NCBI GenBank assembly: GCA_021816155.1 | Contig: JAKAZA010000023.1 | Location: 1-37,023 of the forward strand | Reading direction: 5' to 3' | DNA length: 37,023 nt | Origin: Pseudomonadota bacterium | GTDB lineage: Bacteria > Pseudomonadota > Alphaproteobacteria > Caulobacterales > Caulobacteraceae | In this document: piece after piece, positions 101 to 36,985 of the stretch | How the letters are laid out: each line of letters begins with the position of its first letter | How positions within the stretch are numbered: the first letter of the stretch is position 1 | Made by a program: the position numbers and the translations under genes | Notes under the pieces: generated by a model | What the model was told of the DNA's origin: nothing | Seen by the model: only the letters and a program-made list of their open reading frames with translations | Database searches by the model: none

Positions 101-1324
101 CTATTCGGCGGCCTCCTCGGCCGCGACTTCGCCCAGCACCTCGTCCGTGTGCTGACCGAGCCTCGGCGGATAGCGGCGGATGTTGGCGGGGGTCTTGGCG
201 TAATTAACCGGCGGCCGCATCGCGAGGTAGCCGCCGGCCTCGGGGTGCTCGTGATGCTCGAAGAAGCCCACGGCTTTCAGGTGCGGATCGTCCGGCAGGT
301 CGTCGAACCGGTTCATCCGCACCACGGGGATGTTGAGCGGCTTGAGCAGTTCCAGCCACTCGGCGGTGGTCCGGGTGCGGGTCACCTCATCGACCATGGC
401 GTAGAGTTCGCCGATGTGCGCGGCGCGGGTGCGGAAATCCGAGAACCGCGGGTCCTTCGATAGCGTATCGCCCCAGCCGGCGATCTCGAAGAACTGGTCC
501 CACTGGGCGTCCGTGTAGGGCAGGAGCCCGATGTAGCCGTCCTTGGTGGGGAACGGCTTGCGGTTCGGATTGGCCGAGCGGGTGTACGACCACTGCCCGG
601 TGGGCGGCTCGAAGGTGTGGCCGAACAGATTCTCGACGAGATTGAAGCTGGTGACGCACTCCAGCATCGGCACCTCGACGAACTGGCCCTCCCCGGTCTT
701 CTGGCGGTGGAAGAGCGCGGCGGTGATCGCGTTGGCCATGAAAAGGCCCGAGACCTTGTCCGCCAGCAGCGTCGGCATGTAGCGCGGCGTCGGGTCGCCG
801 TCGGTGCGCGGCAGGAGGTCGGCCAGCCCGGACCCGGCCTGGATGAGGTCGTCGTAGGCTGGCTCGCCGGCGTAGGGGCCATCGGCGCCGTAGCCCGCGC
901 CGTGGCAGTAGACGATGTCCGGGCGGAGCTGCCTGACGCTCTCGTAATCGAGCCCGAGACGCTTCAGGCCGTCGTAGCGCACGGACGCCGCGAAGACGTC
1001 GCTCGTCCTGATCAGCCGCCTGAGCGCCTTCGCCGCTTTTTCCTCGCGCAGGTCGAGCAGCACCGAGCGCTTGTTACGGTTGATGGCCATGAAGATCGGG
1101 CCGAGGTCGGGCGGGCTGTCCTTCGGCACCGCGCCGCTCCAGCGCATGATATCGCCGCCGCCGCCGCGCCGACCGCCCGGGAACTCGACCTTGATCACGT
1201 CCGCGCCGAGGTCGCCCAGCATCTGGGTCGCGTAGGCGCCGAAGACCACGCCGGTCATGTCGAGGATGCGCACCCCGTTGAGCGGCCCTGTCGCCTCGCG
1301 CGCCAACTCCGCCTTCCTGACCAC
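101..1324 (-). CDS. CaiB/BaiF (family III) CoA-transferase
   Basis: A 407-residue, full-length family III CoA-transferase, which moves CoA between an acyl-CoA and a free carboxylic acid through an aspartyl-CoA intermediate. Visible hallmarks are the N-terminal LNGVRILDM start, the GADVIKVE motif (about 40-47), the NRNKRSVLLDL strand (about 82-92), and YDDLIQAGSGL, in which D158 aligns with the catalytic Asp of formyl-CoA transferase. The start is a GTG preceded by AGAAGGAG at 6-base spacing. The gene is leftward and leads into the VOC gene; it diverges from the acyl-CoA dehydrogenase across a 104-base promoter gap. It probably activates the substrate of the neighbouring degradation cluster. 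The acyl donor and acceptor cannot be read from the sequence. Confidence 0.93.
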   Translation of the reverse strand: MVRKAELAREATGPLNGVRILDMTGVVFGAYATQMLGDLGADVIKVEFPGGRRGGGGDIMRWSGAVPKDSPPDLGPIFMAINRNKRSVLLDLREEKAAKALRRLIRTSDVFAASVRYDGLKRLGLDYESVRQLRPDIVYCHGAGYGADGPYAGEPAYDDLIQAGSGLADLLPRTDGDPTPRYMPTLLADKVSGLFMANAITAALFHRQKTGEGQFVEVPMLECVTSFNLVENLFGHTFEPPTGQWSYTRSANPNRKPFPTKDGYIGLLPYTDAQWDQFFEIAGWGDTLSKDPRFSDFRTRAAHIGELYAMVDEVTRTRTTAEWLELLKPLNIPVVRMNRFDDLPDDPHLKAVGFFEHHEHPEAGGYLAMRPPVNYAKTPANIRRYPPRLGQHTDEVLGEVAAEEAAE

Positions 1325-1356
1325 GCGTCACTCCTTCTGGTCCCGACTTCTTGGGG

Positions 1357-1386
1357 CTGACGGCCCCGGTCTGGTCTGACTACAAT
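1357..1386 (+). promoter_or_regulatory. Candidate promoter of the acyl-CoA dehydrogenase operon, with a hairpin over the -35
   Basis: In the divergent gap, CTGACG (1357-1362) and TACAAT (1381-1386) are separated by 18 bases, a fair sigma-70-like match reading rightward. A perfect 5+5 inverted repeat (GGGGC at 1353-1357, GCCCC at 1363-1367) brackets the -35 and could be a repressor site for one or both divergent genes. The match was made by eye, and alphaproteobacterial promoters deviate from the E. coli consensus. Confidence 0.4.
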
Positions 1387-1428
1387 GCAGGCAAGGCGGG
1401 CGAAAAGCCACGGGAGGAGACGTAGGGC

Positions 1429-2610
1429 GTGGAATTCGAACTCGCCGAAGAGCACCGGATGCTCAAGGACCTCGTCGCACGGTTCGTGCGCGACGAACTG
1501 ACCCCACTGGAAGGCAAGGTGCTGGCCAGAGAGGCCGCTGGTGGCGGGCTCGGTCTGGACGAGGACGATCACAAGCGGCTCGACCGGATCTCCAGGGACC
1601 TCGGCCTCTGGGGCCTCGACGCGCCCGAGGACATCGGCGGCGCCGACCTGCCCAACGTGGCCATGGTGGGCGTCGAGGAAGAGCTCGGCCGCACGGTCAC
1701 GCCCTACACGCTGCCGCCGGACTCGCCGAACCTGCGCATGTTGATGGCGACCGTCAACGAGCGGCAGAAGGCGCTGTACCTCGAGCCCTACGTGCGCGGT
1801 GAGACCATCTCGGCGATCGGCATCTCCGAGCCCGGCGCCGGCGGCGATCCGGCCGGCATGACGACGACCGCCGTCCGCGTCCCGGGCAAGGATGGGGGCG
1901 ACGACTGGGTGATCAACGGGCGCAAGATATGGATCAGTCGCGCGGCCGAGGCCGACTTCACGATCCTGATGGCGCTGACCGACCGCGAGAAGCGCGCCCG
2001 CGGCGGCATATCCGCCTTCCTGGTCGACAAGGGGACGCCGGGCTTCAACGTGCTGCGCCGCATCCCGATGGTCGGCGGCGCCTACACCTACGAGATCGCG
2101 CTGGAGGACTGCCGCGTCGAGGGCTGGAAGCTGCTCGGAACGGAGGGCAACGGCTTCGCGCCGATGCAGCTCAGGCTCGGCACCCGCCGCATCCAGATGG
2201 CGGCCTGGTCGGTGGGCATGGCCCAGCGAGCGCTCGACATGATCGTCGAATACGCGCCGCAGCGGGTCACGTTCGGCGTGCCGCTTTCGGAACGCCAGGC
2301 GGTCCAGTGGTGGGTCGCCGAGGCGGCGACCAAGATCCACGCGACCCGCCTCATGGTCTACGACTGCGCCTGGAAGCTCGACCAGGGCCGCGACGTGCGG
2401 CTCGAGATCTCGATGATCAAGTGGTTCGCCACCGAGATGGCCTACGAGGTGGTCGACCACGCCATGCAGGCCTTCGGCGCCATGGGCATGACCAAGGAGC
2501 TGCCGCTGCAGCAGATGAGCGCGAAGCTGCGCACCATGCGGATCTACGACGGCCCCACCGAGGTCCACAAATGGGTGGTCGCCCGCAACCTTCTGGGGAC
2601 GCGGCGGTAG
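1429..2610 (+). CDS. Acyl-CoA dehydrogenase, ACAD10/11-like
   Basis: A 393-residue FAD-dependent acyl-CoA dehydrogenase that would introduce the alpha-beta double bond in a CoA thioester. The three-part fold is visible: N-terminal helices; a middle beta domain with the FAD-contacting 'AIGISEPGAGGD' and 'WVINGRKIWIS'; and a C-terminal helical domain with 'FGVPLSERQAVQWW' and 'QAFGAMGMTKELPL'. The usual catalytic YEG glutamate is replaced: the motif reads IYDGPTEVH, with D374 at the catalytic position, as in the ACAD10/11-like branch. The alternative IVD/LCAD glutamate position holds Arg. The start is GTG, with GGGAGGAG about 10 bases upstream. It is the first gene of the rightward set, 27 bases before the crotonase gene. 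Substrate unknown; a branched or cyclic acyl-CoA is plausible. Confidence 0.93.
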   Translation: MEFELAEEHRMLKDLVARFVRDELTPLEGKVLAREAAGGGLGLDEDDHKRLDRISRDLGLWGLDAPEDIGGADLPNVAMVGVEEELGRTVTPYTLPPDSPNLRMLMATVNERQKALYLEPYVRGETISAIGISEPGAGGDPAGMTTTAVRVPGKDGGDDWVINGRKIWISRAAEADFTILMALTDREKRARGGISAFLVDKGTPGFNVLRRIPMVGGAYTYEIALEDCRVEGWKLLGTEGNGFAPMQLRLGTRRIQMAAWSVGMAQRALDMIVEYAPQRVTFGVPLSERQAVQWWVAEAATKIHATRLMVYDCAWKLDQGRDVRLEISMIKWFATEMAYEVVDHAMQAFGAMGMTKELPLQQMSAKLRTMRIYDGPTEVHKWVVARNLLGTRR

Positions 2611-2637
2611 GCGGCTAGGGCAAAAAGGGAACCCTGA

Positions 2638-3417
2638 ATGAAGACGCAGTACGGCGAGATCTCCGTCCAGACCGCGAACCACGTCGCGCTCCTCACCATC
2701 GACCGGCCGCCGCACAACCACGTGTCGGTCGAGCTGATGCGCGACCTCGCGGACGCGCTGCACGACATCGACGCAGACGTCGACCTCCGCGCCAGCGTGC
2801 TGGCGAGCGCCGGCAAGGCGTTCTGCGCCGGCGCCGACCTCGTCTCGCCGGGCGGCGTGGGGGCGGACGGGATGAGCGGGATCAACCCGCTCTACGTCGA
2901 GGCTGTACGCCTCTTCTCGGCAAAGAAGCCGATCGTGGCCGCGGTCCAGGGCGCAGCGGTCGGCGCGGGGCTGGGCCTGGCGCTGGTGGCCGATTTTCGC
3001 GTCGCCGCGCCAGAGGCGAGGTTCACCGCCAACTTCGTCAAGCTCGGCTTCCACCCCGGCTTCGGCATCACTCACACGCTGCCGCGCGTGATCGGCGAAC
3101 AGAAGGCCGCGCTGATGTGCCTGACGGGCCGCCGGCTCACGGGCGAGGAAGCCTACGCCTGGGGCCTCGCGGACGTGCTGGCGCCGCTAGACGAGCTGCG
3201 GGCGGCCGCGCTGAAGCTGGCGGGCGAGATCGCCGAGAACGCGCCGCTCGCGGTCCAGTCCACCCGCGCCACGCTCCGCGCGGGCCTCGCCGAGGCGGTC
3301 AAGAAGCAGACCGACCACGAGCTGATCGAGCAGACGTGGCTGCGCAAGACCAAGGACTTCGCCGAGGGCGTGCGCTCCGTGAACGAGCGCCGCGCCGGCA
3401 ACTTCGTGGGCGCATGA
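2638..3417 (+). CDS. Enoyl-CoA hydratase/isomerase (crotonase) family protein lacking both catalytic Glu
   Basis: A 259-residue crotonase-fold protein. The oxyanion-hole segments AFCAGADL (61-68) and GAAVGAGLGL (105-114) are present, and the C-terminus ends in the family-typical EGVRSVNERR...NF. Aligned by eye with rat mitochondrial crotonase, Glu144 falls on G113 and Glu164 on F133 (within 'TANFVKLGFHPGFG'). Both acid/base residues for water addition are therefore missing. CoA binding and enolate stabilisation should remain, but simple hydration is doubtful; an isomerase, hydrolase or retro-Claisen role is as likely. It follows the acyl-CoA dehydrogenase closely in the same direction, so it probably acts on the enoyl-CoA or a later intermediate of the same pathway. 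Confidence 0.9.
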   Translation: MKTQYGEISVQTANHVALLTIDRPPHNHVSVELMRDLADALHDIDADVDLRASVLASAGKAFCAGADLVSPGGVGADGMSGINPLYVEAVRLFSAKKPIVAAVQGAAVGAGLGLALVADFRVAAPEARFTANFVKLGFHPGFGITHTLPRVIGEQKAALMCLTGRRLTGEEAYAWGLADVLAPLDELRAAALKLAGEIAENAPLAVQSTRATLRAGLAEAVKKQTDHELIEQTWLRKTKDFAEGVRSVNERRAGNFVGA

Positions 3418-3448
3418 CGCCGCGCGCGGCGACCTGGCCCCCGAAGCT

Positions 3449-3489
3449 TTGACGTGTGACCGCCGCGTCGGTAGTCATTCGTGACTACC
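3449..3489 (+). promoter_or_regulatory. Perfect 20-bp palindrome overlapping a candidate promoter
   Basis: The 107-base gap between the crotonase and hydrolase genes holds TTGACG (3449-3454). About 17 bases on, at the expected -10 position, is a perfect inverted repeat: GGTAGTCA (3470-3477), TTCG, TGACTACC (3482-3489). The -10-like TAGTCA is inside the left arm. A dyad on the -10 is the layout of TetR- or MarR-type repression. No T-run follows, so an intrinsic terminator is unlikely. A regulator gene is not visible in the window. Confidence 0.55.
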
Positions 3490-3524
3490 AAGCGGCGTGA
3501 GACCGCGGATAGGGAGGAACGCGC

Positions 3525-4298
3525 ATGCCGAAGCTGAACCGGGACGGCGTCGAACTCTACTACGAGGTCCACGGGCAAGGGCCGCCGGTGCTGCTCACGC
3601 ACGGCTACTCCGCCAGCTCGCACATGTGGGCGGGGCAGGTGGCGCCGTTCTCCGAGCGCTATAAGCTGATCACCTGGGACATGCGCGGGCACGGCAGGAG
3701 CGACTACCCGGAAGACCAGACCGCCTATTCCGAGGTCGCGACGGTGGCCGACATGGCCGCGATCCTGGATGCGGTCGGCGCGGAGAAGGCGGTGATCGGC
3801 GGGCTTTCGCTCGGCGGCTACATGTCGCTGGCGTTCCATCTCGCCCATCCGGAGCGCACCGCCGCGCTGCTGATCATCGACACCGGGCCGGGCTACCGGA
3901 GCGACGAGCCGCGCGCCGGCTGGAACGCCACCGCGATCAAGCGGGCCGAGCGGTTCGAGAAGGACGGGTTGCCGCCGCCAGGCGTCGGCGGGGCCGAGAC
4001 CAGGGCCGCGCCGCACCGCAACGCCATCGGCCTCGCCAAGGCCGCGCGCGGCATGCTGACCCAGCACGACGCGCGGGTCATCAACAGCCTGCCGGGCATC
4101 CGCGTGCCCGCGCTGGTGCTGGCCGGGGCCGACGACAGGCCGTTCCTCGCCGCCACCGACTACATGGCGGCCAAGATACCCGGGGCGAGGAAGGTGATCG
4201 TCCCCGCCGCCGGCCACGCGGCCAACATCGACCAACCCGCGGCGTTCAACACCGCGGTGCTGGACTTCCTGAACGAGCTCCAGCTGGAGGGCGCCTGA
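3525..4298 (+). CDS. Alpha/beta hydrolase
   Basis: A 257-residue alpha/beta-hydrolase-fold protein, cytoplasmic (no signal peptide). It has the oxyanion-hole segment LLTHGYSAS, the RGHGRSD loop, the nucleophile elbow GLSLGG with S95, a candidate acid D203 in 'AGADDRP', and the catalytic H231 in 'AAGHAANID'. The cap region (about 125-185) is short. An AGGGAGGAA ribosome site precedes the ATG. Its stop overlaps the next gene's start (TGATG), so it is translationally coupled to the SDR. In this setting it may hydrolyse an ester, lactone, thioester or beta-diketone pathway intermediate; the sequence does not decide which. Confidence 0.9.
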   Translation: MPKLNRDGVELYYEVHGQGPPVLLTHGYSASSHMWAGQVAPFSERYKLITWDMRGHGRSDYPEDQTAYSEVATVADMAAILDAVGAEKAVIGGLSLGGYMSLAFHLAHPERTAALLIIDTGPGYRSDEPRAGWNATAIKRAERFEKDGLPPPGVGGAETRAAPHRNAIGLAKAARGMLTQHDARVINSLPGIRVPALVLAGADDRPFLAATDYMAAKIPGARKVIVPAAGHAANIDQPAAFNTAVLDFLNELQLEGA

Positions 4299-5098
4299 TG
4301 GCCGGCCGCCTCGCCGGCAAGACGGCGGTGGTGGTGGGCGCCGGCCAGACGCCTGGCGAAACGATCGGCAACGGCCGCGCCACGGCGATACTTTTCGCCC
4401 GCGAAGGCGCCGCGGTGATGTGCGTCGATCGCCGCATGGCCTCGGCCGAGGAGACGGCGGCGATGATCGTTCAGGAAGGCGGCAGGGCCAGCGCCTACGA
4501 GGCCGACATCACCCGCGAGGCCGACTGCGAGGCGCTGGCGGCGGAGGGCAAGGCGCGGCTCGGCCGCATCGACATCCTGCACAACAACGTCGGCATCGGC
4601 CTGCGCGACCGCTCTGTGACGCAGCTGCGCGAGGAAGACTTCGACCGCATCCTCGCGACCAACCTCAAGGGCATGTGGCTGACCATCAAGCACGTGCTGC
4701 CCGTGATGCGCGAGCAGGGCGGCGGGGCGATCGTCAACATCTCGTCGATGGCCGCCGTGGCTTCGTCCAACCTCGTCGCCTACGGGATGTCGAAGGCCGG
4801 GGTTAACAAGCTGACCCGCATCACCGCGGCGGGGAACACCCAGTACATGATCCGGTGCAACTGCATCATGCCGGGTCTGATGGACACGCCGATGGCGGTC
4901 GGCGGGCGGGCGAGCGAGCAGGGCCGCTCGACGGATGACATCAGGGCGCAGCGCGACGCGCAGGTGCCGCTGGGGCGCAAGATGGGCACGGCCTGGGATG
5001 TGGCCTACGCGGCCCTGTTCCTGGCCTCGGACGAGGCGAAATTCGTCACCGGCGCGATCCTGCCGGTGGACGGGGGCATGTCGGCGGGCGTGGGATGA
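4298..5098 (+). CDS. Short-chain dehydrogenase/reductase with extended glycine-rich loop
   Basis: A 266-residue classical SDR, a soluble NAD(P)-dependent alcohol/ketone oxidoreductase. It has HNNVG (about 95-99), the catalytic Ser in NISSMA (about 148-150) and YGMSK, with Y162 and K166. The nucleotide-binding loop is unusual: instead of TGxxxGxG it reads VGAGQTPGETIGNGRATA, about five residues longer. An acidic residue at the end of beta-2 ('CVDRR') suggests NAD(H), although the following Arg pair leaves NADP(H) possible. It is coupled to both neighbours (TGATG with the hydrolase, ATGA with the CoA-transferase fusion). It probably oxidises a hydroxy intermediate in the pathway. Confidence 0.92.
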   Translation: MAGRLAGKTAVVVGAGQTPGETIGNGRATAILFAREGAAVMCVDRRMASAEETAAMIVQEGGRASAYEADITREADCEALAAEGKARLGRIDILHNNVGIGLRDRSVTQLREEDFDRILATNLKGMWLTIKHVLPVMREQGGGAIVNISSMAAVASSNLVAYGMSKAGVNKLTRITAAGNTQYMIRCNCIMPGLMDTPMAVGGRASEQGRSTDDIRAQRDAQVPLGRKMGTAWDVAYAALFLASDEAKFVTGAILPVDGGMSAGVG

Positions 5099-7347
5099 GC
5101 GCATATCGGGGCCTGAAGGTTCTTGACTGCACGCAGGGCGTGGCCGGTCCGATGGCGGGCATGCTGCTCGCCGACTTCGGCGCCGAGGTGCTGAAGGTCG
5201 AACCGCCTGGCGGCGACCGCCTCGCCGACAAGCCGGGCTATCAGACGTGGAACCGCGGCAAGGCGCGGACGACGCTCGATGTCGAGTCGCCGGCGGGCCG
5301 CGAGCGGCTCGAGGCGCTGATCGCAGCTTCGGACGTGGCGATCTTCGACTACAGCCCCAGGCGCATGGCGGCGCTTGGGCTCTCCGACGTCGCGGACCGG
5401 CACGGCAGGCTCGTTAGTCTCTGGATGCCGCCGTACGGGACCACCGGCGCCTGGAGCGAAATGACGGAGCACCACGGCGCGCTGACGGCGATGACGGGCG
5501 GCGCTTTCCGGCAATCGAGCTACGCGTACCAGCCGGTCTATCTGGTCGCGCCGTTCCTGCACTACGCGCAGGCCAACATGGGCGCGGGCGCGGCGGGCGC
5601 GGCGCTCTACGAGCGGCGGCGCAGCGGTCGCGGGCAGGCGGTGACGGTGAGCGGCTTCCATGCCGTCGCGCTGGTGGGCGGCGCCTCCGGCAACGTCCTG
5701 CCTCCGGGCCGGCGACCGCTCGGCGCATCGCCTTCCTATCGCACCTACAGATGCGGCGACGGCGAGTATCTCTTTCTGGCGACTCTGTTCAGCTACTTCT
5801 TCCTGCGCGCCGTGGACGCGATGGGCCTCGCCGTCGCGCTCGCCGAGGACGTCTTCCCCGAAGACGTCACGGTGATGATGGAGGCGCGGTTCCTGGAGAA
5901 GCCGCGCGACGAATGGCTGGCGATCCTGCGCGCGGCCGACGTGCCCTGCGGACCGGTGAGTCCGAGGGACGAGTGGCTGCGCAGCGAGTTGATCGCGAAC
6001 AATGACATGCGCCACGTGTTCGACGATGCGAAGCGCGGGCCGGTCGAGATGCCGGGGACACCGATCAAGCTCTCGAAGACGCCGGCGCGGGTGACCGGCC
6101 TCGTCCGCGACGCCGCGCCCAGCGACGTCGATGCGTTCGCCGCGGCGCCGTCCGAGGCCTCCGCGTCGCCGGGAGCCCCTGCATCGAAGGCCGCGCCGCT
6201 CGCCGGCATCCGCGTGCTCGACCTGGGCACGGTGATCGCGGGCGCCTACGCCAACGCCATCCTCTCCAACCTCGGCGCCGAGGTGGTGAAGGTCGAGTCG
6301 GCTGACGGCGATCCGTGGCGCGATCGCGGCGTCGGCTTCACCGCCTACAATCGCGGCAAGCGCGGCCTGGTGGTCGATCTGAAGCAGCCGGAAGGCCGGG
6401 CGCTGTTCCTCGACCTGTGCCGCGAGGCCGACGTGGTGCTCGACAACTACCGTCTGGGCGTGCGCGACCGGCTCGGCATCGGCCACGCGGACGTGACCAC
6501 CGCGAACGCCCGACTGATCTCCGCCTCGATCACCACCTACGGCACGCACGGCGAAGAGACGAAGCGGCCCGGCTTCGACCCGCTGCTGCAGGCGCGCAGT
6601 GGCATGATGTGGGCGCAGGGCGGCGGCGCGGGCCACGAGCCGGTCTTCCACGTCCTGGCGGTGAACGACTTCGCGTCGGCCTGCACGGCGGCCTATGGGG
6701 TGATCGCGGCGCTGAACGCGCGCGACGCCATTGGCGAGGGCCAGGTGATGGACACCAGCCTCACCTGCCAGAGCGCCATGTTCCAGTCGGGCGAGCTGAC
6801 CACCTGGCCGGGCGCGCCAGCCGCGCCGCTCGGCGGCCGCGATTGCCTCGGGATCTCCGCGCTGGACCGCTTCTACGCCTGCGCCGACGGATGGATACTG
6901 GTCGCGCCGGAGGGCGCGGGCGAAGCCGCTGCGCTGGCCCGCGCCCTCGGCCACCCCGAATGGACGGACCGCTTCGACATGCCGGCCGAACCGCGCGATG
7001 GCGCGCTCGCCGCCGAGCTCGAAGGCGTGCTCGCGGAGAGAACTCGCGACGAGGCGCTGGCGGCGCTCGTCGCCGCCGGCGTCCGCTGCGCCCCGGTCCA
7101 TGAGAGTGACGAGGCGCTCGCCGACCCGTTCCTGCTCGCCAACGAGTTCGCCGACCAGCCCCGGCGGACGCCCTACGGCCCAGTCGTCAACCGACCCTAC
7201 GGCGCCTTCTCGCGCACGCCCACCGGCTATACTCGTCCCGAACCGGGCCTCGGCGAGCACACCTTCGAGGTGCTGGCCGACTGGGGCGTCGATCCGGAAC
7301 GCATCGCCAGGCTCGGCGCAGAGGGCGTGGTGATGTGCCTGAGCTAG
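5095..7347 (+). CDS. Tandem fusion of two CaiB/BaiF CoA-transferase domains
   Basis: A 750-residue protein made of two consecutive family III CoA-transferase domains (about 1-340 and 365-750) joined by an Ala/Ser/Pro-rich linker. Each half has its own start motif (GLKVLDCTQG and GIRVLDLGTV), GAEVLKVE / GAEVVKVE, and NRGK strand. The C-terminal half has the catalytic Asp, D495 in GFDPLLQARSG. At the aligned position in the N-terminal half the sequence is EHHGALTAMTG, placing H127 where Asp should be, so that half is probably non-catalytic at this site. Family III enzymes are interlocked homodimers; this fusion could form the same ring within one chain with a single active site. The start overlaps the SDR stop (ATGA). 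It is the last gene of the rightward operon and meets edd tail to tail. Confidence 0.93.
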   Translation: MSAYRGLKVLDCTQGVAGPMAGMLLADFGAEVLKVEPPGGDRLADKPGYQTWNRGKARTTLDVESPAGRERLEALIAASDVAIFDYSPRRMAALGLSDVADRHGRLVSLWMPPYGTTGAWSEMTEHHGALTAMTGGAFRQSSYAYQPVYLVAPFLHYAQANMGAGAAGAALYERRRSGRGQAVTVSGFHAVALVGGASGNVLPPGRRPLGASPSYRTYRCGDGEYLFLATLFSYFFLRAVDAMGLAVALAEDVFPEDVTVMMEARFLEKPRDEWLAILRAADVPCGPVSPRDEWLRSELIANNDMRHVFDDAKRGPVEMPGTPIKLSKTPARVTGLVRDAAPSDVDAFAAAPSEASASPGAPASKAAPLAGIRVLDLGTVIAGAYANAILSNLGAEVVKVESADGDPWRDRGVGFTAYNRGKRGLVVDLKQPEGRALFLDLCREADVVLDNYRLGVRDRLGIGHADVTTANARLISASITTYGTHGEETKRPGFDPLLQARSGMMWAQGGGAGHEPVFHVLAVNDFASACTAAYGVIAALNARDAIGEGQVMDTSLTCQSAMFQSGELTTWPGAPAAPLGGRDCLGISALDRFYACADGWILVAPEGAGEAAALARALGHPEWTDRFDMPAEPRDGALAAELEGVLAERTRDEALAALVAAGVRCAPVHESDEALADPFLLANEFADQPRRTPYGPVVNRPYGAFSRTPTGYTRPEPGLGEHTFEVLADWGVDPERIARLGAEGVVMCLS

Positions 7348-29839: not shown

Positions 29840-31340
29840 CGCCAACACCGCGCGGTTGAAGATCACGCCAGCCGTCGCGCTGGGCTTGTTGATCGCCGCG
29901 ACCCTGGCGGCGCGCCTGTTCGTCGGCGCGCTGGCGCCGCTCAGCGAGGACGAGGCCTACTACCGCCTGTGGTCGCTGAAGCCGGCGTTCGGCTACTTCG
30001 ATCACCCGCCGATGATCGCCTGGTGGCTGTGGCTCGGCCGGCAGATCGCGGGTGACACGCCGCTCGGCGTGCGCCTGATGCCGGCGCTCGGCGCAGCGGC
30101 GACGACGGCGCTGATCTTCGACCTCGCGGGCCTGGTCGGGGTCTCGGAGCGCGCGGCCTTGCGCGCGGCGCTCTGGTTCAACGCCACGCTGCTGATCGGT
30201 CTGGGCGGCGAGCTGGCGGTGCCGGACGGGCCGACCGCGCTGTTCTGGACCGCCGCGCTCTGCTGCGCGTTCCGCGCCGCTCGCGGCCATCGAGCCTGGT
30301 GGCTCGCGGCAGGGGCCGCGGCCGGACTCGCCTGCCTCTCCAAGTACTCGGCGCTCTTCCTGGCGCCCGGGATCGTGCTCTGGCTTGCGCTGCACCGCGA
30401 CGGCCGCCGCGCGCTCGGCACGCCATGGCCGTGGCTGGCCGCCGTGGTCGCCGTTGCGATCTTCGTCCCCAACGTCGTCTGGAACGCCCAGCATCACTGG
30501 GTGACGTTCCAGAAGCAGTTCGGGCGTGTCGCCGGCCACGATTTCGCACCGCGCTACCTGCTGAAGCTAATCTTCGACCAGTTCGTGCTGCTCAACCCTG
30601 CGATCGCCATCTTCCTCGGTCTGGCGATCGTGCGCCGGACCGCCTGGCCGATGCTCGCCGTCGCTGCGCCGTTCGCGGGGTACCTCGTCGTCCATTCCCT
30701 GCACGATGCCGTTCAGGGCCAGTGGCCAGCGCCGCTCTATCCGATGCTCGTCATCGCCGCCGCCGCCGCCGCGGAAGGGGCGAGCGGGTGGCGCGGCGGC
30801 CTGCGCGCGTTCGCGCCGTGGCTGGGCTTCGGGCTCTGCGCGGCCGTGTTCGCCTTCGCGCTCGCCCCGCTCGACGGCGTGCTGCCGTTCCGCGACCCCG
30901 CCGCCGCCTATCGCGGCTGGCCCGCGTTCTACGCGGGGGTCGAGCGCGAGCGGGCGGCCGCGGGCGCCGCCTGGGTCGGCGCGACGACCTACGGCCTCGA
31001 CGCCGAACTCGCCTTTTCGCCCGCCATCAAGGCGCCGGTCACCGAGATCTACGAGCGCGCGCGCTTCAGCTTCGAGACCCCCGCCGAGCGGGCGGACTTC
31101 ACGCGGCCCGGCCTCGTCGTCTCGGCTCCGAGGTCGCCGGCGCTGGCGTCGATCGACAGCTGCTTCGGCGAGGTCCGGCAGCTGCCCGATCTGGTGCGCG
31201 GCCGCGGGACCAGCGCGACCGTCTACACCGTCTACCTGGTCGGCCAGCCGAAATACGAAATGGAGGACGCCGGCTGCTACCGGCCAGATCTGCCGAATTT
31301 CGTCTCCAACCAGGCCGGGACCCGCTCGACGAGACCGTAG
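29811..31340 (+). CDS. GT39 (ArnT/PMT-like) membrane glycosyltransferase
   Basis: A 509-residue multi-spanning GT-C enzyme that uses a polyprenyl-phosphate sugar to glycosylate a lipid or protein on the periplasmic side. The first periplasmic loop has the diagnostic acidic pair in LSEDEAYYRLWS (D47, E48) and YFDHPPMIAWW (62-72). About ten hydrophobic helices follow, then a C-terminal periplasmic part of about 120 residues. I chose the ATG at 29811 (MSARTLASGSANTARLK); a frame open further upstream is inside the GT2 gene. Its end overlaps the convergent Mur-ligase gene by 64 bases. Acceptor unknown: lipid A, LPS core or a surface protein are candidates. Confidence 0.92.
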   Translation: MSARTLASGSANTARLKITPAVALGLLIAATLAARLFVGALAPLSEDEAYYRLWSLKPAFGYFDHPPMIAWWLWLGRQIAGDTPLGVRLMPALGAAATTALIFDLAGLVGVSERAALRAALWFNATLLIGLGGELAVPDGPTALFWTAALCCAFRAARGHRAWWLAAGAAAGLACLSKYSALFLAPGIVLWLALHRDGRRALGTPWPWLAAVVAVAIFVPNVVWNAQHHWVTFQKQFGRVAGHDFAPRYLLKLIFDQFVLLNPAIAIFLGLAIVRRTAWPMLAVAAPFAGYLVVHSLHDAVQGQWPAPLYPMLVIAAAAAAEGASGWRGGLRAFAPWLGFGLCAAVFAFALAPLDGVLPFRDPAAAYRGWPAFYAGVERERAAAGAAWVGATTYGLDAELAFSPAIKAPVTEIYERARFSFETPAERADFTRPGLVVSAPRSPALASIDSCFGEVRQLPDLVRGRGTSATVYTVYLVGQPKYEMEDAGCYRPDLPNFVSNQAGTRSTRP

Positions 31341-32686
31341 AGCGGCCCGGAGGAAAGCAGCAGCACCACCTCGTCGCCCTGCAACCTGCGCTCCAGTTCG
31401 GCCATCGCCGCGTCCGCGCTCGCCGCCGCGTTGGCCGCCACGCCGGCCGCGCCGACGCGCGCCACGATCTCGGCGAGGCTCAGCTGACGGTGGGTGATCG
31501 CCCCGTGCGCCGGCGGCGGCAGAACCAGCACTTCGGCGACGCCCTCGAACACGGTGTCATACCAGGAGAGCGCCGCCTCGCTGCGCCAGCTGAACGTGTG
31601 CGGCTCGAACACCACCACGAGCCGCCGATGCGGGAAATGCAGCGCGATCGCCTCGATCGCCGAGCGCGCCTTCTCGTACGACGAGCCGAACCCTTCGTAG
31701 GCCGGCACGGCCGAAGCGCGAGTCTTCTTGTCGAGCCGCCGGGCGACGCCGCGGAATGCGCGCACGCCCGCCGCGAGCTGATCCGGCCGCAGCACGCCCC
31801 ACTCCAGGAGCAGCGCCGAGGCGCCCACGATGTTCTCGATGTTGTGCAGGCCGAGCAACTCGGTCTCCAGCGGCCAGGTCCGCCCGGCGGGCGTGCGCAG
31901 CGCGAAACGGGTGATCTCGCCGATCTCGACGTCCGTTGCGCTGTAGCCGGGCCCCTCGCCGAGGCCGTACCAGGTCACCGGGCGCCCCGCCGCGAGGCGG
32001 CGGATCGGCTCGTGGTCGCGCGACGCCACGACCAGCGCATCGGCGGGCAGCCTCGCGATCAGCTCGGCGAACGGCGCCTCGTAGGAGGCCATCGTCGGGA
32101 AGACGTTGAGGTGGTCGTGGACCAGCGAGCTCAGGAGCAGCAGCCGCGGATGATAAAGCAGGAACTTCGAGCGCCGGTTCTTGGCGTCCACCACGTACTC
32201 GTCGCCCTCCAGCAGCAGTTCCGGGTCCGCGCCGGCATGGCCGGTGGTCGGCAGGTCGAGGGGAACCGCGCCGATGAAGTAGCCCGGATCGCGCCCGGCG
32301 GCCCGCATCATCACCGCCAGCATCGCGGTCAGCGTCGACTTACCGAAGCTGCCGGCCACGACGCAGGTCTCGCGGGTGGCGGAGTATTCGCCCAGGTGTT
32401 CAGCGAAGCTCTGCCGCCGGACCCCTTTCGCCGCCAGCGCCGCCAACTCGGGGTTGTGCTCGAGGTCGAGCGCAGCGCTCGAGCCGACAATGGCGAGGTC
32501 GAGGTCGTCCGGAACGTGGCTCGCCTCGAAGCCGCGGAAGAAGGGAATGCCGAGCCGCTCCAGGTAGGTGCTGACCGGCGGATACACGTCCCCGTCGGAG
32601 CCAAGCACCTGATGGCCCTCCGACGCCATCAGCGACGCCAGCGCGCTCATCCCCGCTCCGGCGATTCCAAGGAAATAGACCTTCAT
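31277..32686 (-). CDS. mpl: Mpl-like Mur ligase (UDP-MurNAc:tripeptide ligase family) with altered motifs
   Basis: A 469-residue Mur ligase resembling Mpl, which attaches recycled L-Ala-gamma-D-Glu-meso-DAP to UDP-MurNAc. Family marks are the N-terminal 'FLGIAGAGMSALA' and 'LGSDGDVYPP', Walker loop GSFGKST (112-118), LEGDEYVVDAK then RRSKFLLYHP (171-180), 'LGLHNIENIVGAS' (about 278-290) and FRGVARRL (311-318). Deviations are notable: the Walker loop normally reads GTHGKTT, and the DDFAHHP/DDYGHHP motif is EGFGSSY (331-337), with both His replaced by Ser. FEPHTFSWRS (360-369) is closer to MurC. The fold and ATP site look intact, but the joined substrate may differ. No Shine-Dalgarno is evident. 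It lies 67 bases downstream of the PhyH gene on the same strand. Confidence 0.85.
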   Translation of the reverse strand: MKVYFLGIAGAGMSALASLMASEGHQVLGSDGDVYPPVSTYLERLGIPFFRGFEASHVPDDLDLAIVGSSAALDLEHNPELAALAAKGVRRQSFAEHLGEYSATRETCVVAGSFGKSTLTAMLAVMMRAAGRDPGYFIGAVPLDLPTTGHAGADPELLLEGDEYVVDAKNRRSKFLLYHPRLLLLSSLVHDHLNVFPTMASYEAPFAELIARLPADALVVASRDHEPIRRLAAGRPVTWYGLGEGPGYSATDVEIGEITRFALRTPAGRTWPLETELLGLHNIENIVGASALLLEWGVLRPDQLAAGVRAFRGVARRLDKKTRASAVPAYEGFGSSYEKARSAIEAIALHFPHRRLVVVFEPHTFSWRSEAALSWYDTVFEGVAEVLVLPPPAHGAITHRQLSLAEIVARVGAAGVAANAAASADAAMAELERRLQGDEVVLLLSSGPLYGLVERVPAWLETKFGRSGR

Positions 32687-32753: not shown

Positions 32754-33572
32754 TCAGGCCGGCGAGGCGCCGTTCACCAGGCCGAGCCCCTGCGTCTTGT
32801 AGCCCAGCAGCACCAGCATCTCGTCCGAGGCGAACTGGCGGACCTCCGGCTTCAGCGACAGGAACCAGTTCTCCTGAGTGCGGTAGATCGGCCGCGTATA
32901 CCAGGCGAAGACGCCGGCGCGGTGTTCGCCCTCGGTGCGGTTGAAGCCGGTCTTGTGCCAGACGCGGCTCTCGAACACGACCGCCGAGCCGGCAGGCGCT
33001 TCGATCGCGACGGTGGCGGCCGCCGCATCCTCGGCGCGCGGCGCACGGTTCAGTTTGTGGCTCCCCGGCGCGAAGCGCGTGGCCCCGTTGGCCTCGGTGA
33101 AGTCGTCGAGGCACCAGGCGACGTTGAGGCCCTGCGGCTGGTCGGGCCAAGGCTCGGGCACGAAAATCTGGTCGGCGTGCAGCACCATCTCGCCGCCGCC
33201 CGGGCCGGTGATGTTGGCCGAGATGTTGCCGAGCAGCGCCGGCCAGCCGAGCGCGCCGCGCACGTAGTCCACGGCGATGCGGTGGAACGCCATGTCCTCG
33301 AAGACGGGGTCGCGCGAGAGCACGTTCCAGACGCGCTGGTTCGTCTCGTCATGGGCGTAGTCGAGGCCGAACTTCTGCTCGCGGCCGCGGGCGCGGTCGC
33401 TCTCGGCGGCCCGGTAGAGCGCTTCGCGGGCGCGCTGCAGGGCGTCGCCCGTGAGCACGTCCGGCACGATGGCGAGGCCGAAGTCGAGGATGTCCGCCAG
33501 GCCCTGCTCGAGGCTGCGAGTCGGCGCCGGGAGCACGGCGTTGCGAGCGGCGGCCTGCTGCGCGAGCGTCAT
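32754..33572 (-). CDS. PhyH-type Fe(II)/2-oxoglutarate dioxygenase 1
   Basis: A 272-residue phytanoyl-CoA dioxygenase family protein, expected to hydroxylate a substrate using O2 and 2-oxoglutarate. The iron triad is intact: H132 and D134 in LHADQIFVPEPW and H206 in RVWHKTGF, with R218 in HRAGVFAWYTR to bind 2-oxoglutarate. 'LNVAWCLDDFTEANGAT' and 'APGSHK' are core jelly-roll strands. There is no signal peptide. The ATG overlaps the stop of the preceding dioxygenase gene (ATGA) without its own ribosome site, so translation is coupled. It is the third gene of the leftward lyase-PhyH-PhyH set. Substrate not determinable. Confidence 0.92.
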   Translation of the reverse strand: MTLAQQAAARNAVLPAPTRSLEQGLADILDFGLAIVPDVLTGDALQRAREALYRAAESDRARGREQKFGLDYAHDETNQRVWNVLSRDPVFEDMAFHRIAVDYVRGALGWPALLGNISANITGPGGGEMVLHADQIFVPEPWPDQPQGLNVAWCLDDFTEANGATRFAPGSHKLNRAPRAEDAAAATVAIEAPAGSAVVFESRVWHKTGFNRTEGEHRAGVFAWYTRPIYRTQENWFLSLKPEVRQFASDEMLVLLGYKTQGLGLVNGASPA

Positions 33573-34363
33573 CGGGTGGCCACTCGCGCTGCCGCCAGGG
33601 GGGCGGCGAGGCGCATGTTCGCCACCGGACCGAGGCCGAGCCAGCCGTGCATCTGCGGCGAGAGGCCGGCGATCGTCGCCGCGGAGAGCGCCGCGTTCCA
33701 GTTGGTTTGCGGCCGGATGAAATCGCGAGAGTAGTAGCCGAACAGCAGCGCGCGCTGCTCGTCCGCCGTCACGTTGGCGCCCGAGGTGTGCCAGAGCCGG
33801 CCGTCCATGGCGATCACGGAACCCTCCTTGGCCTCGAACGGTCGCATGCCGGCCCGCGGATCGGCCGGGACGTCACGCGCCCAGGCGATGCGTTGGCTGC
33901 CCGGAAGGTAGAGCGTGGCGCCGTTGGCCGCGCGCACCTCGTCGAGGCACCAGATGACGTTGATCGACCAGGGCTCGAGCCATGGTTCCGGAACCACGAT
34001 CGACTGATCCGAATGCGGCTTCATCGACTGCGCGCCCGGCAGGGCGATGTTGGCGGTGAAGTTCGAGATCAGGAAGCCCGAGCCGAGCAGCGTCGTCACC
34101 AGTTCGATCGCCAGGGGGTCCTGGATCAATTCGGCGAACGCCGGGTCGAGGTCGATCAGGTTGAACACCCGCACGTTGCGCTCGTTCGGGTCGATGCCGA
34201 TGTTCCGCGTCGGCGCGCCGCGCCGCTCGCTCTCCTCGGCCGCCCGCCAGAGCCGCTCGCGCAGGTCGGCGCATCGATCCGCGCTGAGCACGCCGGGGAG
34301 GATCGCGAAGCCTTCGCTGGCGAGCTGCCGCTTGGCGGCGGCGAGGTGGGAGGCGTCGCCCAT
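33569..34363 (-). CDS. PhyH-type Fe(II)/2-oxoglutarate dioxygenase 2
   Basis: A 264-residue paralogue of the next gene, sharing the VPEPW, 'NV-WCLD', 'ANGAT' and 'PGS' segments. Iron ligands are H117 and D119 in KPHSDQSIVVPEPW and H192 in RLWHTSGA; R204 in DEQRALLFGYYSRDF would bind 2-oxoglutarate. Both tandem copies therefore look active. The start chosen (MGDASHLAAA) overlaps the ThDP-enzyme stop as TGATG; a frame open further upstream lies inside that gene. Two active dioxygenases in a row suggest two successive oxidations or a heteromeric enzyme. Confidence 0.92.
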   Translation of the reverse strand: MGDASHLAAAKRQLASEGFAILPGVLSADRCADLRERLWRAAEESERRGAPTRNIGIDPNERNVRVFNLIDLDPAFAELIQDPLAIELVTTLLGSGFLISNFTANIALPGAQSMKPHSDQSIVVPEPWLEPWSINVIWCLDEVRAANGATLYLPGSQRIAWARDVPADPRAGMRPFEAKEGSVIAMDGRLWHTSGANVTADEQRALLFGYYSRDFIRPQTNWNAALSAATIAGLSPQMHGWLGLGPVANMRLAAPLAAARVATR

Positions 34364-36102
34364 CAACGCACCGGGATGTTCTCGTAGTAGGGGATCGGAA
34401 TCTCGTCCTCGGCGTCGAGGCGCCCGACCATCATGGCGGTCACCGGATGGGCGATGTCCGGGTCGGTGAGGATGTTGAGGCAAGCCGGGCCGCCGGAGCC
34501 CTGCGCGGCGCGAACGGCCGGGGCGATGTCCTCGAAGCGGGTGATCTCCTCGCCACGGCAGCCGAAACCCTGCGCCACGGTGTGGTAGGCGCTGGGCGCG
34601 AGTTTCACGGCCGCGAGGTTCTGCTTGCCGAACACCAGCTCCTGGCCGTGCTGCGACATGCCCCAGGCGGCGTTGTTGAAGACCACGGTCAGGATCGGCA
34701 GGCCGTGGCGCGCCATGGTGTCGAACTCGGCGATGTGGAATCCCGCCGCGCCATCACCCATGATGACCGCGACCGGCTTGCCCGGACGCGCGCGGGCCAG
34801 CCCGATGGCGTAGCCCTGGCCGACGCCGAGCGTGCCGAGATAGCCGTTACCGAGGTAGAGGCCCGGGCCCGGCGAGCGGCCGAACGGCTGGAACCAGGCG
34901 GGCGCCTCGCCGCCGTCGTAGGCGATGGCGGTGTCCGGATCGAGCGCCTCGCCAACGGCGCGGGCGGCGTGGAACGGGTGGATCAGGCCGGCCGGGGTCA
35001 TCGTCGGCGCGTCTTTGAACGCGCGTTGGCCTGCTGCGCGCAACTGACGCAGCAGCCCGATCCAGGCGCCCCGGTCCGGCCAGGCGCGTCCCTTGGCCGC
35101 CGCCAGCAGCGCGGCCAGCGCCTCGCCGGCGTCGGCGGTGACGGCGATGTCGGGCGCGCGCAGCCTCCCGATCTCGGCCCCGTCGATGTCGACCTGGACG
35201 AGCCGGGCGCGATCCGGGACGACCTGGCCGGAGCGGCCGCCCAGGAACAGCCCCTGGCGCGCGCCGATCAGGATCACGAGGTCTGCGGGCTGTTTCGCGC
35301 CCATCGCCGCCGCCGCGAGGCCTCCCGCGGCGCCGGCGTTCATCGGATGATCGGCCGGAAGCGCGCCGTTGGCCTTGCTGCTCGCCAGCACGGGCGTCCC
35401 GGTGAGGCTCGCGAAGTCGCCGAGCAGCTCCGAACACCGGGCCGAGAGCGCGCCGCCGCCGACGACGATCGCCGGCCGCTCGGCCTTCGCGACGAGGCCC
35501 AGGATCGCGTCCACCGCCTCGGGCGGGGGCGCCGGTCGGCCGACCAGAGCCGGCTGAGCCGGGAGCGCGATCTCGCCGTCCGCGACCGGCGCGAACATGA
35601 CGTCGATCGGCGCCTCCAGGAACACCGGCCCCGGCCGGCCGCTGAGCGCCAGGCGCACGGCCTTGTCGACGAGGTCGGGGATGCGTTCGACATTCGTGAT
35701 CCGGTGAGACCATTTGGTCACCGGGGCGGCCATCGCCACCTGGTCGAAGCCGCCTTGCAGCGGATTCGTCGCCACTTCGCGCAGCGGCGGCGAGCCGGCG
35801 ATGAAGAGCACTGCCTGCGCGTCCAGCCAAGCGTCGACCATGGCGGTCAGCGCGTTGGCGAAGCCTGGCCCGGCGGTGATGACCGCAACGCCGATCTTGC
35901 CGGTCGCGCGCTGGTAGGCCTCGGCGGCGTGGCCGGCGGTGGCCTCGTGCCGTGTGTCGGTGAGTCGGATTCCCTCGTCCGGGCAGGCGACGAGGAAAGC
36001 GTCGAGGTGCCCGCCATGCAGCGCGAAGACCTCGGTGACGCCGAGCGCGCGCAGCGTCCTCGCCAGCACGACGCCGCCCGTGCTGCGTTCCGCGCCAGCC
36101 AT
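34363..36102 (-). CDS. Benzaldehyde-lyase-like ThDP-dependent C-C lyase/ligase
   Basis: A 579-residue thiamine-diphosphate enzyme of the acetolactate synthase/benzaldehyde lyase/2-hydroxyacyl-CoA lyase superfamily. The ThDP site is GDGAAGF (449-455) through NNAAWG (476-481). Residues of Pseudomonas benzaldehyde lyase recur with a constant +3 offset: H32 (BAL H29) in LHGGHLD, the catalytic E53 (E50) in TRHEATAGHAAE, and Q116 (Q113) in TNPLQGGFDQVAMAAP. Acyloin or 2-hydroxyacyl cleavage is thus more likely than acetolactate synthesis. The first of two in-frame ATGs (36108) touches AGGAGG directly; the second (36102) is 6 bases from it, so the protein begins MAGAERS. It heads the operon with two PhyH genes. 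Confidence 0.88.
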   Translation of the reverse strand: MAGAERSTGGVVLARTLRALGVTEVFALHGGHLDAFLVACPDEGIRLTDTRHEATAGHAAEAYQRATGKIGVAVITAGPGFANALTAMVDAWLDAQAVLFIAGSPPLREVATNPLQGGFDQVAMAAPVTKWSHRITNVERIPDLVDKAVRLALSGRPGPVFLEAPIDVMFAPVADGEIALPAQPALVGRPAPPPEAVDAILGLVAKAERPAIVVGGGALSARCSELLGDFASLTGTPVLASSKANGALPADHPMNAGAAGGLAAAAMGAKQPADLVILIGARQGLFLGGRSGQVVPDRARLVQVDIDGAEIGRLRAPDIAVTADAGEALAALLAAAKGRAWPDRGAWIGLLRQLRAAGQRAFKDAPTMTPAGLIHPFHAARAVGEALDPDTAIAYDGGEAPAWFQPFGRSPGPGLYLGNGYLGTLGVGQGYAIGLARARPGKPVAVIMGDGAAGFHIAEFDTMARHGLPILTVVFNNAAWGMSQHGQELVFGKQNLAAVKLAPSAYHTVAQGFGCRGEEITRFEDIAPAVRAAQGSGGPACLNILTDPDIAHPVTAMMVGRLDAEDEIPIPYYENIPVR

Positions 36103-36123
36103 CGGCATCCTCCTGCTTCCGTT

Positions 36124-36139
36124 GCCCTGCCGTCAGGGC
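36124..36139. promoter_or_regulatory. Perfect inverted repeat between the lyase operon and the divergent SDR
   Basis: GCCCTG-CCGT-CAGGGC, a perfect 6+6 dyad with a 4-base spacer, in the 100-base divergent gap. Leftward, a weak sigma-70-like pair (TTGAGC, then TCTAAG after 18 bases) lies just upstream, which would put the dyad near the transcription start of the lyase-dioxygenase operon. It is a candidate operator for both directions. Confidence 0.45.
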
Positions 36140-36202
36140 GCCAGAAGCTTAGACTCAATTGCCCCAGCGGCGCTCAAGGGGCCTCACGGAAAGGGGAAGG
36201 GC

Positions 36203-36985
36203 ATGCGATTCGACGGCAAGGTGGCGGTCATCACAGGCGGCGCATCCGGCATCGGGCTCGCAGCCGCGCGCCGGTTCCACACGGAAGGGGCGACGGTGGT
36301 GATTGCGGACGTCAACGACGAGCTGGGCGGGGCCGTCGTAGGCGAGCTCGGTCCCGAGCGGGCGCGCTACCGGCGCGCGGACGTTGCGGTCTGGGAGGAC
36401 GTGGAAGCGCTGATGCAGGGCGCGGTCGCGGATTTCGGCCGGCTCGACGTGCTGTTCAACAACGCCGGCGTCGGCTCCTTCGCCCGCACGCCCGACCTCG
36501 AGATCGACGCCTGGCGGCGGGTGATCGACATCGACCTCACCGGCGTCTTCTTCGGCTGCAAGGCGGCGATCCCGCTGCTCAGGGCCCGGGGCGGCGGCGT
36601 AATCGTCAACACCGCCTCGATCTCGGGGCTGGCCGGCGACTACAGCTTCGCCGCCTACAACGCCGCCAAGGGCGCGGTGGTGAACTACACCCGCGCCGCG
36701 GCCATAGACCACGCCCGCGAGAACATCCGCATCAACGCCGTCTGTCCCGGCCCGGTCGACACGCCCCTGATCGCGGGGGTCAACACGCTGCAGGGCGTGC
36801 GCCAGACCTGGGACGAATGCGTGCCGCTCGGCCGGTTCGCGAAGCCCGAGGAGATCGCCGCTGTCGTCGCGTTCCTCGCCTCGGACGACGCGTCTTACGT
36901 CGTGGGCGCCGCCATCCCGGTCGACGGCGGCGTCATGGCGCACACCGGCCAGCCGAATCTGTCGCGACTGCTCGACGCCGGCTGA
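36203..36985 (+). CDS. Short-chain dehydrogenase/reductase
   Basis: A 260-residue classical SDR with all canonical motifs: TGGASGIG (11-18), an acidic D36 after beta-2 ('VVIADVND') favouring NAD(H), NNAG (86-89), S139, Y152 and K156 (YNAAK), and 'CPGPVDTPLI'. The ATG follows GGGGAAGGG; an upstream open stretch lies antisense to the lyase gene and is not coding. It diverges from the lyase-dioxygenase operon, sharing its control region. It may oxidise or reduce an alcohol/ketone made in that pathway. Confidence 0.94.
   Translation: MRFDGKVAVITGGASGIGLAAARRFHTEGATVVIADVNDELGGAVVGELGPERARYRRADVAVWEDVEALMQGAVADFGRLDVLFNNAGVGSFARTPDLEIDAWRRVIDIDLTGVFFGCKAAIPLLRARGGGVIVNTASISGLAGDYSFAAYNAAKGAVVNYTRAAAIDHARENIRINAVCPGPVDTPLIAGVNTLQGVRQTWDECVPLGRFAKPEEIAAVVAFLASDDASYVVGAAIPVDGGVMAHTGQPNLSRLLDAG

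Follow-up and report, generated by a model that had tools for sequence, protein, structure and literature searches.

Benzaldehyde lyase (BAL)-type enzymes, which depend on thiamine diphosphate (ThDP), are widely used in biocatalysis. Their natural setting is little described in the literature that was searched. The reaction listed for BAL in Table 1 of PMC13327070 is the cleavage of benzoin into two benzaldehyde molecules. A ThDP enzyme also acts in peroxisome-type alpha-oxidation, where a PhyH dioxygenase hydroxylates an acyl-CoA and the resulting 2-hydroxyacyl-CoA is split into an aldehyde and formyl-CoA. Here, we analysed an operon made of a ThDP enzyme gene and two genes encoding PhyH-family 2-oxoglutarate (2OG) dioxygenases (PhyH-A and PhyH-B), accompanied by a divergent gene for a short-chain dehydrogenase/reductase (SDR). 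It is located on contig JAKAZA010000023.1 of assembly GCA_021816155.1, from a bacterium of the Caulobacteraceae family; the whole stretch analysed (37,023 nucleotides) is referred to as the window. The operon is genuine and intact, and the SDR gene is part of the gene set. We give an even chance to the proposal that this set constitutes a CoA-free catabolic module, which would oxidise and hydroxylate a substrate and then cleave an acyloin.

Placement and active site of the ThDP enzyme

In searches of the PDB, the best sequence matches of the ThDP enzyme were BAL and its engineered form, formolase (398-407 bits; 37-38 % identity to BAL), followed by the Herbiconiux BAL (348 bits) and then by structures of 2-hydroxyacyl-CoA lyases (HACL) and OXC (about 227 bits and lower). 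A structure predicted from a 10-row alignment (mean pLDDT 82.8) gave BAL as the best fold match by E-value and HACLs as the next, with close TM-scores (0.85 vs 0.83). A phylogenetic tree was then built from 30 rows, i.e. the window enzyme, 21 relatives, three BAL, three HACL/OXC (one HACS and two OXC) and two AHAS/GCL sequences, AcHACL, HACL1 and HACL2 being outside this set. The window enzyme, its relatives and the BAL rows formed one side of the tree (support 89/99), outside which fell the HACL/OXC and AHAS/GCL rows (100/100 each). Within this side, the three BAL rows made up a BAL-proper clade (100/100) that leaves the window enzyme out, the BAL junction being weakly supported (80/85). Because of this placement, the ThDP enzyme is assigned by its sequence to the wider BAL group, other than BAL proper. 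A preliminary description of the locus had called the lyase BAL-type rather than HACL-type, a view with which the tree, the bit scores (407 vs about 227) and the best fold match all agree; in the tree against acetolactate synthases that it had also proposed, the lyase fell outside them.

That the protein is an acetolactate-synthase-type or 2-oxo-acid decarboxylating enzyme standing beside unrelated dioxygenases is highly improbable. Acetolactate synthase models were its best NCBIfam names, at a score far below their cut-offs (308.2 vs 587 bits); moreover, IlvI and Gcl were placed outside in the tree and the linkage with PhyH genes recurs in other genomes. Acetolactate synthase identity was rejected on the first two grounds. 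HACL/OXC membership was likewise rejected, since the enzyme scored below the curated cut-offs (NF058623, 269.7/600 bits; NF006721, 251.5/557 bits; TIGR03254, 221.3/739.4 bits) and outside the HACL/OXC clade.

Residues H29, H32, E53 and Q116 of the window enzyme align with H26, H29, E50 and Q113 of BAL. The constant +3 offset noted in the preliminary description for H29, E50 and Q113 thus holds, and the use of E50 and Q113 as marks of BAL does not: Glu occupies the E50 place in 29 of the 30 tree rows and, according to Table 1 of PMC13327070, Gln occurs at the Q113 place in RuHACL, AcHACL and AHAS as well. Both residues were rejected as BAL-only marks. At the H29 place, His was found in 25/25 BAL-group rows (including 22/22 of the non-BAL rows of the BAL side) and in none of EcOXC, OfOXC, TbHACS, IlvI and Gcl. 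As the H44-Q128 spacing of AcHACL equals the H29-Q113 spacing of BAL (84 residues), H29 may be common to AcHACL, judging from spacing rather than from an alignment of AcHACL. The 22 non-BAL rows also hold Gln at Q113 in 21 cases (N in Variovorax), and the H26 place is His in the window and Asn in two of the three BAL rows.

The positions of BAL W163, A394, L395, Y397, A480, T481 and F484 are occupied in the window enzyme by I, G, E, P, M, S and G, respectively. These replacements extend to most or all of the 22 non-BAL rows: A394 to G, L395 to E and T481 to S in 22/22, and W163 to I, A480 to M and F484 to G in 20/22 each. Y397 and F484 also vary among the three BAL rows. Which of these positions line the BAL pocket is our assumption; with it, the pocket predicted for the ThDP enzyme is unlike that of BAL. 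Furthermore, a C-terminal PYYxNxP tail, located beyond the stretch aligned with BAL, is invariant in 10 rows.

One of the replaced positions bears on alpha-oxidation. In Table 1 of PMC13327070, BAL T481 stands at the place of the catalytic Glu493 of AcHACL, HACL1, RuHACL and OXC are listed without a helix in this region, and human HACL2 has Ile at the Glu493 place. The window enzyme has Ser483 there, as do all 22 rows, and its model predicts a helix at 484-491 with low local confidence (pLDDT block means 57 and 53). It is therefore unlike AcHACL and also unlike HACL1 and RuHACL. HACL2, as given in the same table, shows that a HACL may have the helix and lack Glu493, which counts on the side of a HACL-like function.

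The dioxygenases and the layout of the locus

Both PhyH proteins score well above the gathering score of PF05721 (78.8 and 96.6 vs 22 bits). As the preliminary description had read from the sequence, their HxD...H iron ligands and 2OG-binding Arg are intact: H117/D119/H192/R204 of PhyH-A are invariant in 8 rows and H132/D134/H206/R218 of PhyH-B in 5 rows. The two proteins share 37 % identity and belong to separate tree groups (split 99/99) of 9 and 5 rows, the former including an incomplete copy from locus L027. A third PhyH gene of the window's own genome (L024:1920-2810; about 36 % identity to PhyH-A) overlaps an aldo/keto reductase gene.

Neither PhyH-A nor PhyH-B scored above any NCBIfam family cut-off. 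Their PDB profile matches were led by AusE, PrhA, DhiD, AndA, KanJ, SptF and SwnH1, and the closest folds to the PhyH-A model (pLDDT 83.7) were 8zyb, SptF, PrhA and AusE, at about 20 % identity. These nearest solved relatives act on free small molecules, for some of them as judged from PDB entry titles. No publication on DhiD (8zyb) was found in the literature searched. Weak matches to PhyH-A included 7e01, 7dzz and 7dt0, deposited as phytanoyl-CoA dioxygenase (1.3e-4 to 1.5e-3), and human PHYHD1 was also a weak match to the PhyH proteins. Human PHYH (2A1X) was missing among the PDB matches listed (30, 46, 50 and 51 sequences), its presence in the library being unchecked.

Taken with the lyase data, these results make peroxisome-type alpha-oxidation an unlikely role for the operon. 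In its favour, PF05721 is by name the phytanoyl-CoA dioxygenase family; the weakly matching deposits cited above bear that name too; HACL structures are the next-best folds of the lyase, with TM-scores near that of BAL; the 2-hydroxyacyl-CoA lyase model NF058623 does match, below its cut-off; and CaiB-type genes near L054, L059 and L060 and near the window start keep a CoA route possible. However, the cut-offs for HACL and OXC are unmet and these families stand apart in the tree, Ser replaces the AcHACL Glu next to a predicted helix that Table 1 of PMC13327070 does not give for HACL1, RuHACL and OXC, the operon is devoid of a CoA ligase or CoA transferase gene, and the top-ranked relatives of the dioxygenases are natural-product enzymes. 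On account of the cut-offs, the tree, the lack of a CoA-activating gene and the lack of PHYH among the matches listed, we consider alpha-oxidation unsupported. Of the hydroxylate-then-cleave scheme put forward in the preliminary description, the logic and the acyloin option were retained and the alpha-oxidation option was not supported.

The features of the locus are given in Table 1. Direct reading of the sequence confirmed the three leftward genes and junctions described earlier, i.e. a TGATG overlap at 34365-34361 between the ThDP enzyme and PhyH-A genes, and an ATGA overlap at 33572-33569 between PhyH-A and PhyH-B. An AGGAGG motif stops 6 nt ahead of the ATG at 36102 and, because of this spacing, that start looks better than the alternative upstream ATG at 36108, the outer possible start of the lyase open reading frame (ORF), from which the SDR gene, absent from the preliminary description, is 94 bases away. 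The palindrome between the SDR and lyase genes is a possible candidate operator. In L025, L028, L031 and L054, a TetR gene precedes the lyase gene in divergent orientation; none adjoins the window lyase.

Table 1. Coordinates of the gene set in the window
Feature	Position	Strand	Description
ThDP enzyme gene	36102-34363	-	579 aa, open ORF; Pfam TPP_enzyme_N/M/C, well above gathering scores
PhyH-A gene	34363-33569	-	264 aa, open ORF; Pfam PhyH PF05721
PhyH-B gene	33572-32754	-	272 aa, open ORF; Pfam PhyH PF05721
SDR dehydrogenase gene	36203-36985	+	260 aa; divergent from lyase gene
Imperfect palindrome	36115-36148		15-nt arms, 80 % complementary, 4 nt spacer; SDR/lyase intergenic stretch

Downstream of the operon, a Mur-ligase-like gene (31277-32686), matched by MurC/Mpl models below their cut-offs, looks like a housekeeping gene. 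At the other end of the window (101-7347), genes resembling those for a CaiB CoA-transferase, an acyl-CoA dehydrogenase, an enoyl-CoA hydratase, a hydrolase and an SDR were recognised by eye, together with a gene for a 750-aa protein in which Pfam recognises CoA_transf_3 twice.

Neighbourhoods and co-occurrence in other genomes

Neighbouring genes were counted within 6 kb around 22 ThDP relatives, the window being excluded. L050 (on the contig of L026) and L035 (BAL proper) were omitted, and L029 nearly duplicates L028. Families were assigned by similarity to labelled genes, so that the counts are lower bounds, and example names were confirmed by Pfam; narrow label sets lead to undercounting, above all for MFS transporters (L032 and L059 have MFS genes by Pfam). 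The commonest neighbours were SDR (at least 12 loci) and zinc-type alcohol dehydrogenases of the medium-chain dehydrogenase/reductase (MDR) type (at least 9), ahead of PhyH (at least 5); TetR was found in at least 7 loci, ABC binding proteins and aldehyde dehydrogenases in at least 4 each, FMN dehydrogenases in at least 2, and CaiB and MFS in at least 1 each.

PhyH-A adjoins the lyase gene in L020 (PhyH-A then lyase), in L025 (lyase then PhyH-A, with 81 % identity each, at a contig end) and in L054 (lyase then PhyH-A, 71 % and 60 % identity). Two further loci are clusters: lyase, TetR-like gene, MDR and PhyH-A in L021, and lyase, MDR, PhyH-B and the start of PhyH-A in L027, where the contig ends. 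None of the 22 other loci showed the exact lyase-PhyH-PhyH order, L025 ending at a contig edge. The triplet was consequently rejected as a fixed order, the recurring unit being the ThDP enzyme with PhyH-A; of the conserved neighbourhood that the preliminary description had proposed to survey, this pair recurs and the full triplet does not.

Camelimonas and Chelatococcus carry a TetR/lyase-MDR-SDR arrangement, Variovorax a TetR-lyase-SDR-MDR-ABC uptake one, and Rhodococcus BG43 an aldehyde dehydrogenase-lyase-SDR one with an MFS gene close by, and two order members combine the lyase with genes for a TonB receptor, an SDR, an aldehyde dehydrogenase and an MFS transporter; in none of these is a PhyH gene nearby. 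The SDRs of the Camelimonas and Chelatococcus ThDP-MDR-SDR loci are 63-64 % identical to the window SDR, which itself passes the equivalog cut-off of NCBIfam NF052558, meso-2,3-butanediol dehydrogenase (320.6 vs 270 bits), a match at the level of the name that does not imply the substrate. In G466, a genome of the window's own family that likewise shows no PhyH gene near the lyase, an SDR with 70 % identity to that of the window and a lyase from a different subgroup are encoded divergently, as they are in the window. For the MDR beside the Chelatococcus lyase, a relative with 51 % identity is encoded at another place in the window's genome (Pfam ADH_N, ADH_zinc_N); MDR copies from five genomes had mixed neighbours and gave no clue to the substrate. 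It could thus be that SDR, MDR and lyase together degrade a vicinal diol or acyloin and that the PhyH enzymes act elsewhere on the molecule, not on the cleaved carbon. The six loci in which ThDP enzyme, SDR and MDR occur with no PhyH nearby (L028, L029, L030, L031, L032 and L034) and the butanediol dehydrogenase type of the SDR speak for this alternative. On its own, however, it leaves the association of PhyH-A with the lyase group unexplained, and we regard it as rather unlikely.

Some surroundings of the lyase were of other kinds. In L055, an FMO-like flavin monooxygenase gene (Pfam) adjoins the lyase, and L058 has a similar-looking gene (by eye). In Nocardioides insulae (L030:7203-8789), the gene of a second ThDP enzyme, 27 % identical to that of the window and with Pfam TPP_enzyme_N and C, precedes that of the BAL-group lyase by 1.2 kb, a regulator-like gene lying between them (by eye). 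At L035, on a plasmid of Rhodococcus erythropolis R138, the BAL-proper gene is near FAD monooxygenase, Rieske, PDR-type oxygenase, aldehyde dehydrogenase and formyltetrahydrofolate deformylase genes, perhaps for the breakdown of methoxylated aromatics; no PhyH gene is annotated at this locus, the one examined for the BAL clade.

Co-occurrence was scored across genome samples at E<=1e-150 for the ThDP enzyme, at least 54 % identity for PhyH-A and E<=1e-60 for the SDR; the last two thresholds were picked after the hits were known, the window's own genome was counted, and the class and order samples share members. At these settings the ThDP group is rare (6/385 class genomes, 8/299 order genomes and, among 398 phylum genomes, the window's own only). 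All four class genomes with PhyH-A (4/385) are among the six with the ThDP enzyme (Fisher p = 1.7e-8; 1.1e-6 when the own genome is left out; 1.6e-4 when counted by genus). Of the three order genomes with PhyH-A (3/299), two also hold the ThDP enzyme (Fisher p = 0.0019). Together with the PhyH genes within 6 kb of 5/22 loci, these values indicate an association beyond chance. A rough chance estimate for PhyH beside the lyase in 5/20 loci (p from 3e-6 to 4e-3, assuming 10-50 PhyH genes per 3500 genes) was not relied on.

In the class count of the SDR, scoring was limited to 14 candidates per genome. It was found in 3/181 class genomes, i.e. the window's, G091 and G123, of which the latter two also hold PhyH-A and the ThDP enzyme, with the SDR on another contig; G004, which has the ThDP enzyme alone, is in this 181-genome sample and is devoid of the SDR. 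Among 14 chosen genomes, six possess the SDR and five of these six also hold PhyH-A. G592 has the ThDP enzyme and PhyH-A side by side and an unlinked PhyH-B (81 % identity). Parts of one set are thus found together even if scattered. At the unlinked SDR loci, an MDR gene adjoins the SDR gene in 2/4 (G227 and G674). A search of plasmids for PhyH-A yielded four records with 29-31 % identity.

Unlinked members of the set in G123 (L022 and L093) and G091 (L105) have among their neighbours a P450 gene (L022), a ring-hydroxylating Rieske gene (L105), both by Pfam, and acyl-CoA dehydrogenase and CoA-transferase-like genes. These surroundings perhaps hint at a lipid, steroid or terpenoid substrate. 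PhyH pairs occur in another setting too, at L073:8398-10027 (G440) and L074:8168-9797 (G560), where the proteins are 49-50 % and 37-38 % identical to PhyH-B and the neighbours are genes for a 126-aa protein with no Pfam family, a TonB receptor, and CaiB-like and SDR-like proteins.

Proposed pathway and comparison with known systems

Enzymes of the BAL group cleave alpha-hydroxy ketones (acyloins), SDRs of the butanediol type convert vicinal alcohols and ketones into each other, and 2OG dioxygenases hydroxylate unactivated carbons. In the module that we propose, the SDR, of butanediol-dehydrogenase type, would convert an alcohol to a ketone, and in relatives the zinc-type alcohol dehydrogenase would help to adjust the balance between the alcohol and ketone forms of the substrate. 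The PhyH enzymes would turn the ketone into an acyloin, most simply by placing a hydroxyl alpha to the ketone, and the lyase would then cut the acyloin between its C=O and C-OH carbons into two carbonyl products. The two dioxygenases might serve two sites or two substrates, and a heterodimer is possible. Lineages supplied with preformed diols or acyloins could manage with SDR/MDR and lyase alone. More specifically, the set may be a CoA-free counterpart of alpha-oxidation, in which a 2OG dioxygenase would alpha-hydroxylate the SDR-made ketone and the BAL-group lyase would split the acyloin into two aldehydes, an idea that we hold as tentative and somewhat doubtful. If true, ketones could be cut independently of Baeyer-Villiger oxygenases and of CoA activation, by a gene set partly dispersed over several bacterial families.

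The direction of the pathway could also be reversed, since BAL-type enzymes ligate aldehydes in vitro: the ThDP enzyme would then act as a carboligase that forms an acyloin, with the PhyH enzymes tailoring the product. The nearest solved PhyH relatives do include tailoring enzymes (AusE, PrhA, SptF, AndA, KanJ and SwnH1). However, an assembly-line gene is missing from the operon, and relatives carry genes for regulators, for aldehyde dehydrogenases and for uptake (ABC binding proteins and a TonB receptor), which makes a biosynthetic set very unlikely. Because of these regulators, uptake genes and aldehyde dehydrogenases, the neighbours point to a catabolic setting, and breakdown is favoured over synthesis.

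Several observations weigh against the proposed module. The co-occurrence counts are small and their thresholds were set post hoc, and the order sample becomes weak when the own genome is removed (Fisher p = 0.047). The parts also occur separately: G674 has PhyH-A and the SDR and no close ThDP enzyme (best 309 bits), G440 and G560 have the PhyH pair and no close ThDP enzyme, G004 and G116 have the ThDP enzyme and neither PhyH-A nor the SDR, and G592, a genome 85 % complete, has no SDR at E<=1e-60. In the neighbourhoods, 4 of the 12 SDRs (L020, L021, L030 and L034) are just 31-39 % identical to the window SDR, and 6/22 relatives (L026, L051, L052, L053, L055 and L058) have none of the scored families within 6 kb. 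Regarding the tree, the bootstrap value of 89 falls short of 95, and a program warning flagged the outgroup branches as long. Finally, as the pocket differs from that of BAL, the acyloin chemistry is proposed by analogy with the BAL group, activity and substrate being predicted only.

The recurring partners of the lyase (SDR, alcohol dehydrogenase and 2OG dioxygenases) yield a testable pathway hypothesis, and the 22 sequences with a different pocket form a group to screen. If a dioxygenase makes the acyloin, this would be a new bacterial way of cutting ketones.

Among known systems, BAL (PDB 2ag0 and 3d7k; Herbiconiux BAL, 8y7s) is the closest to the window lyase by best sequence and fold match, by the equivalents of H29, E50 and Q113 and by its side of the tree; the window enzyme differs in having W163, A394, L395, Y397, A480 and F484 replaced and in its PYYxNxP tail. 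HACL/OXC and peroxisomal alpha-oxidation share with it the fold family and the idea of hydroxylation followed by ThDP-dependent cleavage, whereas the tree group, the unmet cut-offs, the missing AcHACL Glu and the lack of a CoA-activating gene in the operon set the window apart. The window SDR is like BudC (NF052558) in exceeding the equivalog cut-off and differs in having a lyase as its partner. As for the dioxygenases, their nearest solved relatives, at about 20 % identity, are AusE/PrhA/AndA/SptF, KanJ (kanamycin B dioxygenase), SwnH1/H2 and DhiD, none of which is, to our knowledge, paired with a ThDP lyase. No paper matching a BAL-type lyase with PhyH dioxygenases was found in the openly licensed PMC literature, the partial coverage of which makes this weak evidence. 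The enzyme families are all known, and their combination, together with the altered-pocket subgroup of the lyase, is new to us.

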